A stretch of 25,983 bases of DNA from a virus. Position numbers and translations under genes: made by a program. The notes under the pieces are model-generated. The model was not told the origin of the DNA, ran no database searches, and saw only the letters and a list, made by a program, of their open reading frames with translations. Each line of letters starts with the position of its first letter. Positions within the stretch are counted from its first letter, which is position 1. The stretch spans positions 1 to 25,983 of IMG/VR virus record IMGVR_UViG_3300042691_040393. One strand, 5' to 3'. This document shows positions 4,634-25,983 of the stretch, piece after piece.

Positions 4634-6550
4634 ATGTCCTTAGTAAATTTCACCAATCTAGATTTTGATCAGATTAAAATTTCAATTAGAGATTACCTGA
4701 GGGCAAACTCTAATTTTACAGATTATGACTTTGAAGGTTCTAATCTCTCTACCATCATAGATGTACTGGCATATAATACTTACATTGCATCATACAATGC
4801 AAATATGGTTAGCAATGAAGTTTTTATTGATTCAGCAACACTCAGAGAAAATGTAGTATCATTAGCAAAAAATATTGGATATTTACCAAAATCAAGAACA
4901 TCGGCAAAGGCAGTTATAAGTTTCTTTGTGGATTTATCGAATAGTACGAAAATCCCAAAATACTTAACTCTAAAAAAAGGAGTAGTATGTACATCTCCAA
5001 TAAACATATATTCAGAAAGCTATACTTTTTGTATATTGGATGACATAACTGTTCCTGTAGTCAATAATGTCGCACTATTTGAAGATATAACCATATACGA
5101 AGGAACCTATATGGTTTCTAATTTCTTGGTCGATTCTTTGAATCCAAATCAAAAATTTATTTTAAATAATGCGAATATTGATAGTTCTACAATAAGTGTT
5201 ACAGTAAGAGATTCTCAACAAAGTTCAGTAAGAAGACCATTTGTATTTTCTCAGAACATTATTGGGATTAACGAAAATTCAAAAATATATTTTTTACAAG
5301 AAGTAGAAGACGAAAGATATGAACTAATTTTTGGCGATGGAATATTTGGACAAAAATTAGAATCTGGAAATGTAATAGAGGTTTCATATTTAATTTCAAA
5401 TGGAGATGCAGCAAATAGAATTTCTACATTCAATTTTATAGGAAAAATTACAGATGATACTAATTCTGTTTTGACTGGTGAAGTATCGTTGGTAACTACA
5501 AATGTCATCTCTGATGGTGGCCTAGAAAAGGAATCAATTAGCTCAATTAAAAAATATGCCCCAAGATTATATTCTGCATATAATAGAGCAGTAACTTCAT
5601 CAGATTATGAATCAATCATAGCAAAAATATACCCAGAAACAGAATCTGTGTGTGCATATGGAGGCGAAGAGTTAGATCCACCACAATATGGTAAAGTTTT
5701 TATAGCAATAAAACCAAAGTATAATGGTACTTTTTTATCAAACACAATAAAAAATAATATACTAAATGAATTGAAAAAATATAGTGTTGCTGGAATTTTG
5801 CCTCAAATTATTGATTTAAAATATCTTTACATAGAAACAGACTCTGATGTATATTATAACAAAAATTTAACCTCCAATGTGAGCGATATATCAACACAAA
5901 TTACACAAAATATAACACTATATTCAAAATCAAATGACCTAAATCAATATGGATCAAAATTTAAATATAGCAAGTATCAGAAATTAATTGATGACAGTAA
6001 CTCAGCAATAACATCAAATATCACTAGAATTAAAATCAGAAGAGATCTTTCTGTTAGTCTATATCAACAAGCAATTTATGAAATATGTTTTGGTAATTCA
6101 TTTTTTATTAAAAACTGTGATGGATATAATATTCAAAGTTCTGGATTCAAAATAAGTGATTTTTCGGATACTGTTTATATTTCTGATATTCCAAGTCAAA
6201 CTAATGAAGAAATAGGAGAGTTGATTCTATTCAAATTACTTGGCCCTCAAGAACCACGGGTATTGAGGAGAAATATAGGTACAGTAAATTATAAGAAGGG
6301 AGAAATAATTACTTCTGTATTAAATATAATTTCTACTGACAAAAATATGGGAGGAAATCCAATTATACAAATATCAGCGACACCAAAATCAAATGATGTG
6401 ATTGGATTGCAGGACTTATATTTACAACTAGATATTAATAATGTGAAAATAGCAATGATTCCTGACCAGATATCATCGAGTGAAGATATATCTGGATCTC
6501 GTTATATTATATCATCCAGCTACACAGAAAATAATCTAGTAAGAAAGTAA
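4634..6550 (+). CDS. 6: Baseplate wedge subunit gp6 (baseplate J-like)
   Basis: ATG 4634 directly follows the gp25 stop, and TAA is at 6548-6550. The length of 638 residues is close to the 660 of T4 gp6. The N-terminal part (about 45-80) has YNTYIASYNANMVSNEVF followed by LRENVVSLAKNIGYLPKSRT, a signature of the gp6/baseplate J group. A second block, FGDGIFGQKLESGNVIEVSY (about 233-253), and SDYESIIAKIYPETESV (about 325-342) are also typical. In T4, gp6 dimers join neighbouring wedges into a ring around the hub. The stop overlaps the next start by one base (TAATG), so the wedge genes form one translational unit. Codons are AT-rich (ATA, AGA, TTA). Confidence 0.93.
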   Translation: MSLVNFTNLDFDQIKISIRDYLRANSNFTDYDFEGSNLSTIIDVLAYNTYIASYNANMVSNEVFIDSATLRENVVSLAKNIGYLPKSRTSAKAVISFFVDLSNSTKIPKYLTLKKGVVCTSPINIYSESYTFCILDDITVPVVNNVALFEDITIYEGTYMVSNFLVDSLNPNQKFILNNANIDSSTISVTVRDSQQSSVRRPFVFSQNIIGINENSKIYFLQEVEDERYELIFGDGIFGQKLESGNVIEVSYLISNGDAANRISTFNFIGKITDDTNSVLTGEVSLVTTNVISDGGLEKESISSIKKYAPRLYSAYNRAVTSSDYESIIAKIYPETESVCAYGGEELDPPQYGKVFIAIKPKYNGTFLSNTIKNNILNELKKYSVAGILPQIIDLKYLYIETDSDVYYNKNLTSNVSDISTQITQNITLYSKSNDLNQYGSKFKYSKYQKLIDDSNSAITSNITRIKIRRDLSVSLYQQAIYEICFGNSFFIKNCDGYNIQSSGFKISDFSDTVYISDIPSQTNEEIGELILFKLLGPQEPRVLRRNIGTVNYKKGEIITSVLNIISTDKNMGGNPIIQISATPKSNDVIGLQDLYLQLDINNVKIAMIPDQISSSEDISGSRYIISSSYTENNLVRK

Positions 6551-9500
6551 TGACAACTAAAAGAGTTAATATTTCATCCATAATAGAAACCCAATTTCCT
6601 CTTTTTATAAGAGAGGAATATCCACTAATAACTCAATTCGTATCTGAATACTATAAATCTTTGGACAACCAAGGACTAACTTACGATATTTTGCAAAATA
6701 TCGATCAATATGTAAAACTAGATCATATTACTAATTTAATTGAATTTACTAAGCTTTCTTCTGATTTGGATTTTATATCCACTGAAATTTCAGTATCTTC
6801 TACCGATGGATTTCCAGAAAATAATGGATTGATAAAAATAAACAATGAGGTAATATACTATAAGTCCAAAAATTCAACCACATTTTTAGATTGTATTCGA
6901 GGATTTAGTGGTGTAACTTCTTTTAACAGCTCAACTACTTCGGACCAACTTGTATTTTCTGAATCTAGTTCACAAGAACATAAAACAAACTCAACTGTAC
7001 AAAATTTAAGTATTTTATTTTTAAAAGAATTTTTTACAAAAATAAAGAAACAATTCATACCTGGACTAGAAAATAGAACTTTTTATAGTGATGGTGCGAA
7101 AAAAATAAACGAAAAGAATTTTATCATTCATTCCAAAGATTTTTATTCATCTAAGGGAACAAATAATTCATTTCAAATACTTTTTAAGGCAATATATGGA
7201 GATCCAGCCACAGTAATAAAACCAAGAGACTTTCTAATCAAGCCATCTGATGCAAATTATAAAGTAACAAGAGATATTGTAGTAGAGCCTATATTTGGAA
7301 ATCCAATCGATTTACGTAATCGTACATTGTTCCAAAAGCAATCACAAGAATTAAAAGAAACTTTTGCTACTGTAACTGAAGTAGAAGAAATCATAAGAGA
7401 CAATAAAAAATATTATATCATAAGTCTAGACTACGACTATGATAAAGATATAAATGTCGCAGGAAGTATATTTGGGGAATTTTCGATTTATCCAAAGACA
7501 AAATCTTTGGATTATGTCAAATCTAACTCTACGACAATACCAGTAGATTCAACAATAGGATTTCCGAATGAAGGGGAGCTTTTAGTAAAAGATTTTAGTG
7601 GCAATGATATTTTAATTTCTTATAAGTCAAAAAATAATAATCAATTTTTAGGTTGTAATATAACAGAAAATATTAATATAGGCGAAGATATTTGCTTAAA
7701 TGTCTATGCATACTCTATCGTAAATGGGCAGGAAGTAAAAGTTAGAGTTCTTGGTGTCATCAATAATGTCAATATCCCAATAAACAGCAAGTATTATGAA
7801 AAAGAAGACGTTATAAGTTTTAATACTTTAGGGAAAAAGTATAGTGATTTCAAATACAATGATTGGATAGTAAATGTCCCAAATAAACACTTAGTAAGTA
7901 GTTTTAGTAAATTTGGATTGAATCAGATTATAATCTATACCTATGATGCTACTACTATAAATCCATCAGACGAAGTATATATTCAATTTTTCGATTCTAA
8001 TTCCCAAAGATTAAAGGAAGAAATTTTTTCCGTTGTTCAAATATCACAAGATAGGAAATCATTTTATGTTACAAATGACTATAATATAGAAAAAATATAT
8101 TATATAAGAAAAAGAATAAAATTATATAATGACATCATAAGTAATGTCCAAAATGTATATGGTGACAATAAAAATAATGTTTACATTACATCTCAAACTA
8201 TTCCAGATTATATTGACTCAAATATAGAGAAAAGAAATTTTTCTATTGATATTTTTGGACTGTTGCAGTCATTAGAAAAATCTAAAGTTGGTGTTACAAC
8301 AACTTTAAATGATTTCAATCAAGCTATAGAGTTCAGCCAAATTCATGATTATAAAGATGGCGACTCCGTTGTATACATTCAAACACCAGAAACATACACA
8401 CTAATTAACGGCAAAAAAATAAACTTAAACATTTATAAAGGATTAAAAAAAAATAAAGAATATTATGTTAAGAATATATCAAATTACGAAGTAAATTTAT
8501 TTAATAGTAGGTCTGATATTTATTTCTCAAAATATAATTCAATATCTTACAATAGACTATATTCTCCAGTAAATTTAAAGGAAGTATCGTATTCAGAATC
8601 AGACAAAATAAATTTATTATCAAATAATTACTTTTTTCTGTCAAATGATTTTGTAGTATTGTTTGATGATTCGAATAACGTAGAAATTTGGTACTATTCG
8701 TATGAAGACAATCAATGGGAAAAAATTAATGCAGATATTAGTGGATTTTTATACTCACGAAATTTTTTAACCGAATCGAATCAAATAAAAAAATTAAAAA
8801 ACGTAGATTTAATCAAAAAAATATCTTCTCCCCAAATACCAAACATACTACAAGAAACAAAACCGGGAACAACTGGCATTTTAGTTAATGGAGTCGAAAT
8901 ACTAAATTATAAATCTAATGATTTTATCTATTATGGCAGTCTAGAGAAAATAGATATAGTTTCCGGAGGAGAGGAATATGATGTAATAAATATACCTTCA
9001 GTAGAAGTAATAAATGGAATATCAACAGTAACTTCCGCAAAAGTCCACCTAGAAGTTACTGGAAAACTAGAAAAAATTGAAGTTTTAGATGGTGGATTCG
9101 ATTTTATCGAAGAACCAAAAATAAAAATATCAGGAGGAAATGGCATTGGAGCTGAGGCAAAGTGCAATCTAATTCCATTTAATCATGAGGTAGAATTTAT
9201 TCCTTCTATATCATTTGTAAATTTAAGCACTAATGTAATTTCATTTTCTACTTATCATAAATTTAGAGATAATGAAGAAATAATATACCAAACAAATGGA
9301 AACCTTCCTATAGGTGGATTATCAACTTCTTCTACATATGTTGTAACCGTAAATGATGATTATTCCATTAAGTTACACAAAACCAAAAAAGATGCCTTAT
9401 CTGGAATAGCAATTACTTTTACTTCTTATGGTACAGGAACTCAAAAAATAATTGCAAAACAACAAAAATTAAAAATTGGATCTATATCCATAATTAATTC

Positions 9501-18950: not shown

Positions 18951-20534
18951 ATGTCAGCAATTATAACTGATCAAATTAGAATACTAAATTCAAAAAGTTT
19001 TGTTAGTTCCTTAAAAACGGGAGAAAACAAATTATATACTTTTGTAGGTCTCCCAAATCAAACAGAATATCAATCAAATTGGGATTCTAATCCCCCACCA
19101 CCAAAAGATAGTTTTGATGATGAAAATGATTGTTGGGAAAATATGATATCATTAAAAAGAGTCAATCCGGACTCTGATGTTAGGCATGTAGTAAGAAGAA
19201 CCACTTGGGAGTCTGGAACTACTTATGACATGTATAGACATGATATAAGTAGGAATAATCCATCAAAACCATCTCAAAAATTAAATTTATATCAATCCAA
19301 TTATTATATTTTAAATAGTGATTATAGGGTGTATATTTGCCTCTATAATGGAGCATCACCAGAAAATAATTTTGAAGGAATACCATCAATAACTGAACCA
19401 ACTTTTACTGATTTGGATCCAAAGATAACTGAGGATGGATATATATGGAAATATCTGTATACATTAAATGTAGAAGATGTAATAAAATTTGATTCTTTAA
19501 ATTACATTCCGATTCCTTCTGATTGGGAAACTTCCACAAATTATGAATCAATAAGAAAAAATGCTTTAGAGAGCGGCCAAATAAAAGTAGTAGTAGTAAG
19601 AAATTTTGGAGAAAATTTAGGAGATCCAAATATATACACTAATATTCCAATTATTGGAGATGGATCTGGTGCAAAAGTTAGCATGATAGTTGGAAACGAT
19701 GCAAAAATAACCTCCGTAGTGGTAACAAATGGTGGTAGTAATTATACTTATGGTACGGTGGACCTGAGTGGCATATCATTTCCATCTGAAGCATCTTTGC
19801 CCAAATTTGATGTTATCATACCACCAAAAAATGGACACGCATATGACATTCATAGAGAATTGGGAGCTTATAATGTATTAGTATATTCTAGATTTGAAAA
19901 TGACCAAAATAATCCAGATTTTATCACTGGAAATCAAATATCCAGAATTGGAATAGTAAACAACCCATTGAATTATGGTTCTAGTATAATTTTAGATAGA
20001 GATGGAGTTAGTGCTACGTATGCACTTAAACTGATAGGAAAAAATTTAGTTGATGACTATAAAGGATTGACAATAGAGCCAGATTCAATAGTAACGCAAA
20101 CTGTTGGGACCGGAATTACTGCAATTGGTAAAGTGATATCATATGACAATAAAACTGGAGTATTAAAATATTGGCAGGATAGGTCATTATATGGTTTCAA
20201 TTTAGGTGGAGAATACGATTCTACCGGAACTAGAAAACCTGAAAATGTCTCTACTTATGGAAACGAAAAAGTTCAATTTACAAGTAATATTTTAGCTGGC
20301 GGATCTTTAGATATTTCTGGCTTTTCGTTAACTTTAAAAATAGATAGCAACTATACTGGCATAACAACAGTAATAAATAATGTTAATTATAATCTTGGAC
20401 AAAGATTTACTTCTGGCGTATCCACTCCAGAAGTAAAACCAAACTCTGGTGACATTATCTATGTGGATCACAGACCAGGAATAACAAGATCTTCTAATCA
20501 AAAAGAAGATGTGAAAGTAATCTTACAATTTTAA
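18951..20534 (+). CDS. 8: Baseplate wedge subunit gp8
   Basis: ATG 18951 to TAA 20532-20534 encodes 527 residues, longer than T4 gp8 (334). The start MSAIITDQIRILNSKSFVSSL, the block YRVYICLYNGASPENNFEGI, and EDGYIWKYLYTLNVEDVIKF followed by IPIPSDWETS are, from memory, hallmarks of cyanophage gp8. In T4, gp8 is a dimeric wedge protein that contacts gp7, gp6 and gp10. A GGSNYTYGTVDLSG repeat at about 259-274 matches the beta repeats of its giant neighbours, and the extra length lies around and after it. The next gene starts 15 bases after the stop. Confidence 0.88.
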   Translation: MSAIITDQIRILNSKSFVSSLKTGENKLYTFVGLPNQTEYQSNWDSNPPPPKDSFDDENDCWENMISLKRVNPDSDVRHVVRRTTWESGTTYDMYRHDISRNNPSKPSQKLNLYQSNYYILNSDYRVYICLYNGASPENNFEGIPSITEPTFTDLDPKITEDGYIWKYLYTLNVEDVIKFDSLNYIPIPSDWETSTNYESIRKNALESGQIKVVVVRNFGENLGDPNIYTNIPIIGDGSGAKVSMIVGNDAKITSVVVTNGGSNYTYGTVDLSGISFPSEASLPKFDVIIPPKNGHAYDIHRELGAYNVLVYSRFENDQNNPDFITGNQISRIGIVNNPLNYGSSIILDRDGVSATYALKLIGKNLVDDYKGLTIEPDSIVTQTVGTGITAIGKVISYDNKTGVLKYWQDRSLYGFNLGGEYDSTGTRKPENVSTYGNEKVQFTSNILAGGSLDISGFSLTLKIDSNYTGITTVINNVNYNLGQRFTSGVSTPEVKPNSGDIIYVDHRPGITRSSNQKEDVKVILQF

Positions 20535-20549
20535 TGTATTAGGATAATC

Positions 20550-23500
20550 ATGCCACAAAAAACTAATTTAAATACATATCCATATTTTGATGATTTTAAT
20601 CCAGATAATATATATCATAAGATACTATTTAAACCTGGTTATCCAATACAAGCAAGAGAGCTAACTTCTCTGCAATCCATACTACAAAACCAAATTGAGC
20701 AATTTGGAAAATGGGCATTTCAAGAAGGAAGTCCAGTAATATCTGGAAATATTACATATAATGATAGATATTATGCAGTAGAACTCAAAAATTCTTTTAA
20801 TGGCATAAATGTATTTGACTATTTCGGTCCTATTCCAGGAAAAATTATATTTGGTCAATCTAGTGGAGTAAGAGCAAAAGTAATAAGTTGTATAGGCCCA
20901 CAACAATCGGAAAGAAATAATACAACGATTTATGTTAATTTTATAGATTCTGATTATACAAATTCGGAATACATTGGATTTTCTGATGGTGAGAATTTAC
21001 TTTTAGAAGAAGATACGGCATTTATTATAGGAGAAAATCAAGATACAGTTCTAACAATAAGAAGAGGAGAAGCATTTGCTTCTACTATAGATAGAAATTG
21101 CAATTCTGTAGGATCCATTCTATCGATTGATTCCGGAGTATATTTTACAAGGGGATATTTTATAAAAAATGATCCACAATTTATCATATTAGATCAGTAT
21201 AACAATTCACCAAGTTATATTGTTGGATTTGAAGTACTAGAAGATATTATTACAGTTGAAGAAGATCAATTTTTAAATGACAATGCAAAAGGATTTTCAA
21301 ATTATGCAGCTCCTGGAGCGGACAGACTTGGTATATCACTCGTATTAACAAAAATAGGACTCGATGAAGATGTCCCGGACAATTTTATAAAGTTATTAGA
21401 AATCAATAATGGAGTCATACAAAGTATACAACAAAATCCTCGTTTAAATGAACTAGGAAAAGAATTAGCAAAAAGAACCTATGATGAGTCTGGGGATTAT
21501 TATGTTAAATCTCCAACTATAACAGCAAAAGAAACATTAAATAACTTACTTGGAAATGATGGCATTTATAATAAAAATCAAATAACATTCAATGAAAATA
21601 TACCAGATGAATCCTTAGGAACATATCAGATTTCTCCTTTAAAAGCATACATTAAAGGATATGAAGTTGATGTAATTTCTCCTGTATTTTTAGACTTCAA
21701 AAAGGCAAGAACAACTAAAAGATTAGAAAATCAAAGCATAGTATATAATACTGGATCGAATTTAACTTTAAACAGAGTATATGGTTCTCCAGTTGTAGGA
21801 TTTTCCACTTATACTTTAAGCCTAAGAAGTGATAGAATAGGAATAAATTCTTCTTCTCCAAATGGAAAAGAAATTGGTATAGCTAGAGTTTATGATTTTT
21901 CATTAGAATCCGGATCTTACGACTCTTTAATACCAAATGCAAATCAGTGGAATATATCTCTATATGATATACAAACTTACACAGAAATATCAATAAACGA
22001 ACCACTAACACTAAATGTACCTTCTTACATAAAAGGAAAATCTAGTGGTGCTAGTGGATTTTTGAGATTCAATATTTCAAATTCTGGTATATTAACTGCA
22101 TATAATATTTCTGGTAATTTCATACCTGGGGAAAAATTAGTTTTTAATGATGTAGAAAATGAAAATACTAGAGTTTCTACATTAATCACATCTCATACAA
22201 TAGATAGTGTAAAATCTGTATATGGATTAGTAGGTACTTCATATACTTTTTGTGCAGATACAGTACAAGATACGAAAAAATTGTTTTCAAATGTAGAGAT
22301 TACTAGTGTAGATTCTACTACAGGTATTTCTACCATAAAATCCAATATTCCAGTATTTTCTGGTATAGCCAAAAATAATGATTTAGTATCATACACTTCT
22401 CAAGGAAAAATATACCCAACATATGCCAAAGTAACAAATGTAACTGCAACTACTCTTACTTTGGCTGGATTGACTACTGTAACTGGAGTATGTGATGCCC
22501 AATTGCCATCTACAAATATACAAGTAACAGATTTAAAATTACTTGGAACGAAGAAAAATACATCAGATAATGAAAATCTTTACACAAAACTACCAAAAAA
22601 TGTAGTTAGTGATGTGGATTTGACTAATTCTAATTTGACTGTAAAAAAACAGTTTGATATAACTATAACATCAAACTCTACCGCAAATATATCCGCTGGC
22701 CAAAACGAAACATTTCTCCCATTTGACGAAGAGAGATATGTACTGACAACAGAAAATGGATTTACAGAAGTTTTAACAAACGACAAATTTGATATAACAA
22801 CATACAATAATTCTGGCGGATCTATAATAAAATTCAATGGACTGTCAACTAGTAGTGGATCGGCCAAATTAATAGCTACATTAACTAAAACTAATGTAGA
22901 GGCAAAACTAAAAAATAAATCTAAAATTAAATCAATTGTAGTAGATAAATCTAGATTAATTGGATCTGGAATTGGAGAAACTACTATTAATAATGGACTA
23001 GTTTATGGAAACTATCCATATGGAACTAGAGTAGAAGATGATGATATTTGTCTATTACAATCTGATGTAACTAAAATTTATGGAATATTTGAAAAATCAG
23101 ATAGTATAAATTTAAACTTGGATCCAACAACTCCAAGAATTACTTTAACAGAAATTAGAGGTATTTCTGGAAACACCAATGATATTTCATTAGGAGAAAT
23201 TTTTGTCGGAGAAGTAAGTAATGCGGTTGGAATTTATGCAGAAAAAATTGATCTTGGAACAATAGGATTTATATATTTAAATTCAAATTCATTCATTCGT
23301 GGAGAAACGATAACTTTTGATTCGTCTCAGATAACTGCCACCGTAAATTCGACTACTATTGGGGATAAAGATATAACATCAAATTATATTTTGGATGATG
23401 GACAAAGAAATTCAATATATGATTATTCGAGAATTACTAGAAAACCATCATACAAAGAACCAATAAGAAAAATAAAAATTTATTTTGAATCATCATCTTA

Positions 23501-25983
23501 TTCTCCATCTGATACTGGAGATATAACTACTGCAAATTCATATCAAAATTACGATTATTCAGAAATACCTAGTATTAATGGAGAAAGAAATAGTGATATT
23601 ATCGATGTTAGGCCAAAAGTAACTCAATATCAAGTAGTAGAAGGTACTAGATCACCATTTGAATTTTTAGCAAGAAATTTTTCAACATCATATAATAATT
23701 CTTCAAAATATGTTCTTGCATCAGATGAAAATGTCACTTTATCTTATTCCTATTATCTTCCTAGAGTAGATAAAATATTTCTCTCGAAAGATGCTTTATT
23801 CCAATTGAAATATGGGGAACCATCAGAAACCACTCAGTTTCCATATTCTTTGGATGATTCCATAGAAATAGCTACAATTTATGTTCCTGCATATACTTTT
23901 AGTGCCAGTGATGTTTCTATAGTTAAAAATGAATATAAAAGATATACAATGGCCGATATTGGCAAATTGGAGACTAGAATAGAGAATTTAGAATATTACT
24001 CTACTCTATCTTTATTGGAAAAAGAGACTGCAAACTTAGGTATATTCGATAATAACGGAAATCCTAGATTCAAATCTGGTTTTTTTGTTGACAACTTTAG
24101 TACTACTTTATATCAACAAAAAGATACCATAGTAAAAAATAGCATAGACAGACCAAATAATGAGCTAAGACCAACACATTATACTACTAATTGTGACTTG
24201 ATATTGGGAGAATCTTCCATAATATTGAATAAAGATTTGAGCATAGATATAAATTATTCAAATGATTTCATTTCTAGTAATATAAAGAAAACTGGAAAGG
24301 TAATAACATTAGACTATTCCGAAGTAGTAGAAAATACTCAGCCATTCTCCACAAGAGTAACTGAAGTTACTTCATATTCTACTGCAGAATATGTTGGAGG
24401 GATAACATTGAGTCCATCGTCTGATACTTGGATAAGTCAAAGAAAAACAAAGACTAATCTTGTAGATCTAGATGGAGTCATAACAGAAACACAAAGACAA
24501 ATTATAATAACAGAGGACACGGAAGAAACTGGATTTTCTGCTCCGATATGGAATGGGGGAAGTCTATGGACAAGAGATCTAATATCAACAGAACAAATTC
24601 CTTATATGAGAAAAAGGAATATAGAATTTAGAGCGGAACGAATGAAGCCATATACTAGATTATATGCATTTTTTGACAATGTAGATGTAAATAGACATAT
24701 AATTCCAAAATTAGTTGAAATTCAGATGACTAGTGGGGTCTTCCAAGTAGGAGAGACCATCACTGCAAAAATAGAAGATTCTTTTGGTTCTTGGATTTCT
24801 AGTATAGGAACAGTTCCAGAAATATTAAAACAAAAACTGAGACAAGAAGGAATTTCTATAGAAACTATCTCTGATTTGAAAAATTTAACTCTAAGTTCGA
24901 ATATTGGTATTAGCACTACATCAAACAATGCAGCAGCAAATATTATTTTAGATTATTTTAGATCATCTAACTACGAGTCAGAAAATGGAGGAAAATTTAG
25001 ATTGTGTACTCCAGACCATAAAATTGGTCCATATAATAGTCCAACTAAAAAATATAATGTAAATCCGTATGATAGAAGTCAAATTATACCTTCTACATAT
25101 TCGACTACTTCAAGTATATTAAATATTGATACATTTAGTCTTTCATATAAGGGACAATCCAATTTTTATGGAAATATAAAGATTGGAATGAAATTGATAG
25201 GAGAAACTAGTAATGCAACTGCAATAGTTAAAGACATAAAATTAATTACTGACGATTCTGGAACTGTAATTGGATCATTTAGAATTCCAAATACAGACAA
25301 TATTAATCAAATTGGAGATAGATTTACTTCAGGAGAAAAGGCATTTAGATTGACTAATAGTTCAACTAACTCTCTTATTCCTGGTGTGGTATTCACATAT
25401 GCGTATGAGAAATTTTATTCTCAAGGTACATTGAATAATGTAGAGGAGTCTACTCTTTCTGTTAGTCCTCCTAGCTATGCTCCAGAAATCCCTCCGCCAT
25501 TACCAATAGTATACAACTACAATTTCCCAGAATCGACTCCCCAAATTCCAAATTCGATTCCTCCAGTTATTCCATCGACTCCAGTTATTCCATCGACTCC
25601 AGTTATTCCAACAACACCACAAGATCCACAACCACAAAAAGTAATAAGTGTAAACCGAGGTGGACCAGTTTATGCGAATGGTGCCCAAAGAAGAATAGTT
25701 GAAGCATATTTGGATGCTCGTCCAAACTCAAATGTAACTACGGCACAACAAGTAGCTAATAGATTGGGTGTAAAGAATGTAGATACTCTTCCAAGTGGTT
25801 ACATACCACAAAATGATGGAGATAGAATAGTTAGACAGCTACAAAAACAATTAGATGCACCAGTTGTACCTGGACCTGGATCTTCTATGTCATCTGGCGG
25901 TGGTGGCGGCGGTGGCGGCGGTGGTTCGTCAGGCGGCGGTGGCGGCGGTGGTTCGTCAGGCGGCGGTGGCGGCGGTGGCGGCA
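20550..25983 (+). CDS. DUF4815-type virion structural protein (partial at right edge)
   Basis: ATG 20550 is preceded by AGGA at 20541-20544. The frame is open to the window end (1811 codons) and the stop lies outside. It begins MPQKTNLNTYPYFDDFNPDN and has the N-terminal block FKPGYPIQARELTSLQSILQ, typical of DUF4815 proteins of T4-like cyanophages. A coiled-coil block IGKLETRIENLEYYSTLSLL (about 1136-1155) and RNIEFRAERMKPYTRLYAFF (about 1353-1372) are also conserved. The position after gp8 corresponds to T4 gp9-gp10, pins that carry fibres, so a host-contact or fibre-attachment role is likely. The C-terminus changes character: Pro-rich repeats (nt 25484-25630), a charged helical segment (nt 25638-25860), then polyglycine with Ser-Ser spacers. 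Apart from the glycine codons the gene is AT-rich. Confidence 0.85.
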   Translation, partial: MPQKTNLNTYPYFDDFNPDNIYHKILFKPGYPIQARELTSLQSILQNQIEQFGKWAFQEGSPVISGNITYNDRYYAVELKNSFNGINVFDYFGPIPGKIIFGQSSGVRAKVISCIGPQQSERNNTTIYVNFIDSDYTNSEYIGFSDGENLLLEEDTAFIIGENQDTVLTIRRGEAFASTIDRNCNSVGSILSIDSGVYFTRGYFIKNDPQFIILDQYNNSPSYIVGFEVLEDIITVEEDQFLNDNAKGFSNYAAPGADRLGISLVLTKIGLDEDVPDNFIKLLEINNGVIQSIQQNPRLNELGKELAKRTYDESGDYYVKSPTITAKETLNNLLGNDGIYNKNQITFNENIPDESLGTYQISPLKAYIKGYEVDVISPVFLDFKKARTTKRLENQSIVYNTGSNLTLNRVYGSPVVGFSTYTLSLRSDRIGINSSSPNGKEIGIARVYDFSLESGSYDSLIPNANQWNISLYDIQTYTEISINEPLTLNVPSYIKGKSSGASGFLRFNISNSGILTAYNISGNFIPGEKLVFNDVENENTRVSTLITSHTIDSVKSVYGLVGTSYTFCADTVQDTKKLFSNVEITSVDSTTGISTIKSNIPVFSGIAKNNDLVSYTSQGKIYPTYAKVTNVTATTLTLAGLTTVTGVCDAQLPSTNIQVTDLKLLGTKKNTSDNENLYTKLPKNVVSDVDLTNSNLTVKKQFDITITSNSTANISAGQNETFLPFDEERYVLTTENGFTEVLTNDKFDITTYNNSGGSIIKFNGLSTSSGSAKLIATLTKTNVEAKLKNKSKIKSIVVDKSRLIGSGIGETTINNGLVYGNYPYGTRVEDDDICLLQSDVTKIYGIFEKSDSINLNLDPTTPRITLTEIRGISGNTNDISLGEIFVGEVSNAVGIYAEKIDLGTIGFIYLNSNSFIRGETITFDSSQITATVNSTTIGDKDITSNYILDDGQRNSIYDYSRITRKPSYKEPIRKIKIYFESSSYSPSDTGDITTANSYQNYDYSEIPSINGERNSDIIDVRPKVTQYQVVEGTRSPFEFLARNFSTSYNNSSKYVLASDENVTLSYSYYLPRVDKIFLSKDALFQLKYGEPSETTQFPYSLDDSIEIATIYVPAYTFSASDVSIVKNEYKRYTMADIGKLETRIENLEYYSTLSLLEKETANLGIFDNNGNPRFKSGFFVDNFSTTLYQQKDTIVKNSIDRPNNELRPTHYTTNCDLILGESSIILNKDLSIDINYSNDFISSNIKKTGKVITLDYSEVVENTQPFSTRVTEVTSYSTAEYVGGITLSPSSDTWISQRKTKTNLVDLDGVITETQRQIIITEDTEETGFSAPIWNGGSLWTRDLISTEQIPYMRKRNIEFRAERMKPYTRLYAFFDNVDVNRHIIPKLVEIQMTSGVFQVGETITAKIEDSFGSWISSIGTVPEILKQKLRQEGISIETISDLKNLTLSSNIGISTTSNNAAANIILDYFRSSNYESENGGKFRLCTPDHKIGPYNSPTKKYNVNPYDRSQIIPSTYSTTSSILNIDTFSLSYKGQSNFYGNIKIGMKLIGETSNATAIVKDIKLITDDSGTVIGSFRIPNTDNINQIGDRFTSGEKAFRLTNSSTNSLIPGVVFTYAYEKFYSQGTLNNVEESTLSVSPPSYAPEIPPPLPIVYNYNFPESTPQIPNSIPPVIPSTPVIPSTPVIPTTPQDPQPQKVISVNRGGPVYANGAQRRIVEAYLDARPNSNVTTAQQVANRLGVKNVDTLPSGYIPQNDGDRIVRQLQKQLDAPVVPGPGSSMSSGGGGGGGGGGSSGGGGGGGSSGGGGGGGG
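25563..25610 (+). repeat. 18-bp tandem repeat encoding PVIPST
   Basis: The unit CCAGTTATTCCATCGACT occurs at 25563-25580 and 25581-25598, and a third, truncated copy (CCAGTTATTCCA) ends at 25610. It encodes PVIPST PVIPST PVIP inside a proline-rich stretch of the last gene, probably an extended linker. Confidence 0.9.
25896..25983 (+). repeat. Polyglycine-coding 27-bp tandem repeat at the window end
   Basis: Two identical 27-bp units lie at 25905-25931 and 25932-25958; a third begins at 25959 and changes near 25980. Each encodes seven Gly plus Ser-Ser, after an initial longer Gly run that starts at 25896. The DNA is GGC/GGT-rich and stands out in an AT-rich gene. The window ends inside it, so the full copy number is unknown. 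Confidence 0.92.

Follow-up and report, generated by a model that had tools for sequence, protein, structure and literature searches.

A contig that ends in a run of glycines raises the question of what such a tail does on a phage baseplate protein. The window (the whole stretch of DNA analysed, 25,983 nucleotides, comprising the complete IMG/VR record IMGVR_UViG_3300042691_040393) breaks off inside the 27-bp tandem array that encodes this run. A first-pass annotation had described the array as Gly7-Ser2 repeats, which is correct for the repeated unit, and had likened the tail to T-even gp38 adhesins. The features of the locus are listed below, where half A denotes the N-terminal part and B the C-terminal part of a VrlC/DUF4815 protein encoded by two genes.

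18951 to 20534, plus strand: gp8-like baseplate wedge gene, directly upstream of half A (context)
20550 to 25983, plus strand: half A of the split baseplate protein (DUF4815/VrlC-like), open for 1811 codons up to the end of the contig, stop not reached
23721 to 24446, plus strand: best DUF4815 Pfam stretch, residues 1058-1299
25470 to 25640, plus strand: Pro-rich linker that differs among relatives and begins where homology to fused VrlC proteins stops
25561 to 25610, plus strand: 18-bp tandem repeat encoding STPVIP within the Pro linker (Tandem Repeats Finder, 2.8 copies, 100%)
25641 to 25883, plus strand: three-helix small domain of ~80 aa under purifying selection, found in this phage clade only in the collections searched
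25887 to 25983, plus strand: Gly/Ser low-complexity tail, with the contig end inside it
25905 to 25978, plus strand: 27-bp tandem array GGCGGCGGTGGCGGCGGTGGTTCGTCA (Tandem Repeats Finder, 2.7 copies, 100% matches)

The half A reading frame matches PF16075 (E 9e-50) and positions 1-1335 of phrog_358 (E 0). Its nearest relatives belong to the Kyanoviridae, whose VrlC proteins reach 37-44% identity in tblastn among the nearest. The gene comes after gp25, gp6 and gp8 homologues, and a relative from the split clade (G007) carries photosystem reaction-centre genes, supporting a cyanobacterial host. On these three grounds the earlier designation as a cyanophage baseplate protein holds. Both the DUF4815 core and the position after gp8 in the baseplate cluster agree with the VrlC/DUF4815 family. 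In L009, L012, L082 and others, the C-terminal PLAQSF part has a gene of its own, and its status is read from these relatives, as the window contig stops before that part. Most members carry PLAQSF on the same chain, but the Pfam domain itself does not include this trait, so that the protein belongs to the family by its core.

In frame, the tail reads MSS-G10-SS-G7-SS-G8, and a GGC/GGT-rich run containing the array spans 25895-25982. The longest Gly run in half A is 10 residues compared to at most 5 across 1000 shuffles of the same protein, so the run is not due to chance. No other Gly run above 2 was found in the window ORFs tested. The tail uses GGC (15) and GGT (10) but no GGA for glycine, whereas GGA is preferred in the remainder of the ORF (GGA 77, GGT 26, GGG 7, GGC 6), which indicates that the tail grew by local duplication. 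An assembly artefact was ruled out by independent contigs from other data sets with the same kind of tail, one complete (L009) and one ending in the array (L010). No long Gly motif was found elsewhere in the L009 contig, so that it is confined to this locus; G007 has one unrelated GGT run. Repeat tails of this type break metagenome contigs, and such genes are often seen truncated, with their ends missed.

The end of the tail was read from relatives. Contig L016 matches the window at every one of 8110 bases and breaks off within the Pro linker, and L010 ends after the first Gly units. L009, whose small domain is 91% and whose aligned core segment 95% identical to the window, contains a complete tail of ~80 aa rich in Gly, Ser and Met, which ends in SSMSNGR with a stop at 6489. 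Its six Gly segments of 7-13 residues are separated by SS. L102, which shares its data set (3300008113) with L016, begins with GGMGGSSMSNNR and a stop, followed by a SET ORF and then B. L102 is probably the continuation of the window, with no overlap between the two. The terminal SSMSN(G/N)R is common to L009 and L102. The stop after the tail in L009, together with L102, indicates that the chain ends with this tail, which does not lead on to another domain. A tail ending a DUF4815 baseplate protein had been proposed from the window alone and is borne out, and neither an invariant linker leading to an ordinary domain nor an assembly error was found. As had been anticipated, both length and arrangement vary among close relatives: G10-SS-G7-SS-G8 in the window versus G5-M-G4-SS-G8-SS-G5-M-G4-SS... 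over ~80 aa in L009. L010 has an in-frame stop inside half A (L010:1627), either a sequencing error or a broken gene; it breaks the codon alignment, and the core dN/dS of L010 was left out.

In most cyanophages VrlC is one chain of ~2520 aa, composed of the core, a linker of mostly 41-44 aa and a C-terminal part of ~820 aa that starts with D-PLAQSF. Homology of the window protein to VrlC proteins of isolate cyanophages stops near residue 1638. In L009, L012 and L082, B is a separate gene starting with MEIRSPLAQSF or MEVKNPLAQSF. In L009, the stop of A at 6489 is followed by B as its own 821-aa ORF (6912-9377); in L012, B begins at 6513, after the stop of A at 6480. The window reaches neither the stop nor B, and its split is inferred from these relatives. 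B matches the C-terminal part of phrog_358 (positions 1422-2054) and A the N-terminal part of the same PHROG, of which the fused VrlC of S-SM2 covers positions 1-2055. The S-SM2 protein (PF16075, phrog_358) shares the core, the place after gp8 and, in relatives of the window, the C-terminal part; it is, however, fused (~2520 aa) with a short linker, whereas in the window clade the protein is split and A carries a new linker, domain and tail. Residues 4-166 of B also match residues 791-946 of the DUF4815 chain of Staphylococcus phage 812 (ORF65, PDB 9euf), and the first ~610 residues of 9euf match the core. As both matches lie within 9euf, one chain holds both parts in phage 812. This 1152-aa chain has a homologous core and PLAQSF domain, but no such tail was found in it by sequence comparison.

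Fused and split forms numbered 77 and 5 in a first set of loci, several of which are views of one contig, and 54 and 27 in a second set. Of 60 isolate records drawn from all parts of the ranking, none has two features under a junction query, so no split form was seen among isolates. Upstream of B, the motif NATAAATA is present at -25/-26 in 10/10 close relatives, compared to 1.6% of 60-bp background windows. The same motif has been reported as the S-PM2 late promoter (PMC2984593), and before B it would act as a promoter. SET-domain ORFs (L009:6502-6870 and L117:4507-4914, ~42% identical) were seen only in the A-B gap, in two split-clade lineages; they may have some connection with the fission.

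In a tree of B, with linker and tail left out, a branch separates all 16 split rows from the rest (ultrafast bootstrap 92, SH-aLRT 94, recovered in 94% of bootstrap trees). A larger tree places the split group in a clade of 30 rows (support 100), 14 of which are fused or cut by the contig end. The fused relatives in this clade hold most of the measured expanded linkers, which are Pro/Arg-rich and 69-150 aa long. In S-SCSM1 (L007), for example, a low-complexity (PR)n repeat is found at exactly the same junction as in the window clade, in a VrlC that is still fused and with Pro/Arg where the window tail has Gly. This distribution suggests that linker expansion came first and fission second. It documents the fission of a conserved baseplate protein of T4-like cyanophages, with the expanded low-complexity linkers of relatives as an apparent intermediate state. 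A single split would have occurred in the ancestor of the phage clade, within the linker that joins the DUF4815 core to the ~820-aa PLAQSF part B. The new C-terminus of A would then have become a free end, on which a Pro-rich linker is followed by the conserved helical domain and then a low-complexity tail. B, in close relatives, has its own late-promoter-like motif and its own start.

At the same point, split relatives carry tails of quite different composition: PPRQ(N/D) (L012, L011, L103), PAPPK (L082), KPNP (L096, L107), Lys/Ser (L097) or Pro-rich (L104, L105). The last residue is K or R in 13 of the 16 split tails listed. Composition has turned over fully, while the layout of the region and a usually basic final residue were retained. 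Neutral slippage at a free C-terminus under relaxed constraint, leaving the tail without function, could account for this turnover and for the codon use with its trace of local duplication. We consider this rather improbable, as all complete window-type split tails are in frame, follow a Pro linker and mostly have a basic end, and the terminal SSMSN(G/N)R was kept between L009 and L102. The GC-rich repeat might instead be a DNA or RNA element, a G-quadruplex or hairpin that regulates how the downstream genes are expressed. Indeed, the array fits two-layer G4 patterns; however, the sister lineages L012 and L082 have the same A-B order without such a motif in the tail, and this explanation has hardly any probability. 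No structured RNA or tRNA was found in the window.

The proposed likeness to gp38 was not supported by any of the features tested. A gp38-like adhesin would have its Gly runs as polyglycine-II helices with SS or M at the turns, bind the host and change host range as the array changes. The Gly runs of about 8 residues in gp38 of Salmonella phage S16 (PMC6851490) do resemble the window tail, the six segments of L009 are similar in length to the gp38 glycine-rich motifs, and the array differs between relatives. S16 gp38, however, has ten glycine-rich motifs with short hypervariable segments between them, and such loops were not found here; only SS or M stand between the Gly runs, so that the turns lack variable residues. 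S16 gp38 further has a beta-helix scaffold beneath its poly-Gly domain and an N-terminal helical bundle with conserved Trp by which it docks on gp37; it caps gp37, and its gene lies with that of the gp37 tail fibre. None of this was found at the window locus. The helical domain preceding the tail lacks Trp in 11/11 members and has no PDB fold match, and no gp37 neighbour is present: the upstream neighbour is gp8, and on the downstream side the relatives have SET/B followed by other ORFs. A Pfam scan of the C-terminus (E up to 10) gave no match, to a gp38 family or otherwise. Glycine itself is not conserved in the orthologous tails, which are rich in Pro/Arg/Gln, Pro/Ala/Lys or Lys/Ser and almost without Gly. 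Structure prediction of the C-terminus, as the first-pass annotation had proposed, gave no gp38-like beta-helix: AlphaFold left the tail without structure (pLDDT ~40, no strands), a predicted disorder that comes from a run on 5 aligned rows and concerns poly-Gly, whose structure is hard to predict. A gp38 homologue was ruled out on the unstructured tail and the lack of Pfam and PDB fold matches, and a gp38-like adhesin is very unlikely, which corrects a tempting annotation. In the window's own subclade, the strongly Gly-selective tail could still have a specific structure and may form a polyglycine-II bundle.

In contrast to the tail, the small domain gave a confident three-helix model (pLDDT 84; tail ~40). 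Its dN/dS of 0.06-0.39 indicates purifying selection. The Pro-rich linker before it was predicted to be disordered in L009 by AlphaFold, mostly at low confidence. No relatives of the small domain were found in Pfam, PHROGs, PDB (sequence or fold), viral folds, isolate phages or genome contigs. Other split lineages have unrelated modules in the same C-terminal slot: a novel ~150-aa domain in L112-L116, a Hint-like domain with an S74 fragment in L117-L119, and others in L111 and L168. S74 chaperones usually occur on tail fibres. The slot, with its small domain or replacements, might therefore be a swapped host-contact module that the tail only spaces or protects. We regard this as possible but doubtful, as the small domain has no fold or sequence match to any binding domain and is conserved rather than fast-evolving. 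If a host-range role exists at all, the small domain or the swapped modules are better candidates for it than poly-Gly. Still more tentatively, fission may have turned an internal linker into a free, exposed module slot, where plugged-in domains and tails of the poly-Pro or polyglycine-II type change the contact of the baseplate with the cyanobacterial surface.

The split, the single clade, the turnover of the tail and the NATAAATA motif are established at the level of sequence, and the role of the tail is most likely that of an exposed flexible spacer. We consider it likely that the poly-Gly stretch is a disordered, slippage-prone C-terminal tail of half A of a once-split VrlC/DUF4815 protein. 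As a spacer or tether on the baseplate, it would hold the small domain or the end of A. A and B would still assemble side by side, like the fused protein; this predicts that the two VrlC parts assemble as separate chains with the junction exposed.

Several minor observations were made. The Hint/intein-like domain (L117:3035-3409, also in L118 and L119) is part of the A tail, at the point of fission, and matches PT-HINT with E 2e-5, below the curated cut-off. The S74 chaperone domain (L117:4170-4480) is broken over two frames with a short overlap, a pattern also present in L119 from a different data set, and may reflect a programmed frameshift or a true split. In G007 a photosystem reaction-centre gene (PF00124) is interrupted (L182:2119-2371 and 2628-2863); the region contains two group I introns and a PhotoRC-II RNA. 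The GC-rich 5' end of the window was ruled out as a chimera, as it is kept in relatives. In the window, a DUF6011 ORF (574-1257) lies within a stretch of up to 60% GC in a genome of ~30% GC and is kept in G007, and an element of ~50 bp (428-483) is found again at five sites on the minus strand of the G007 5' region.
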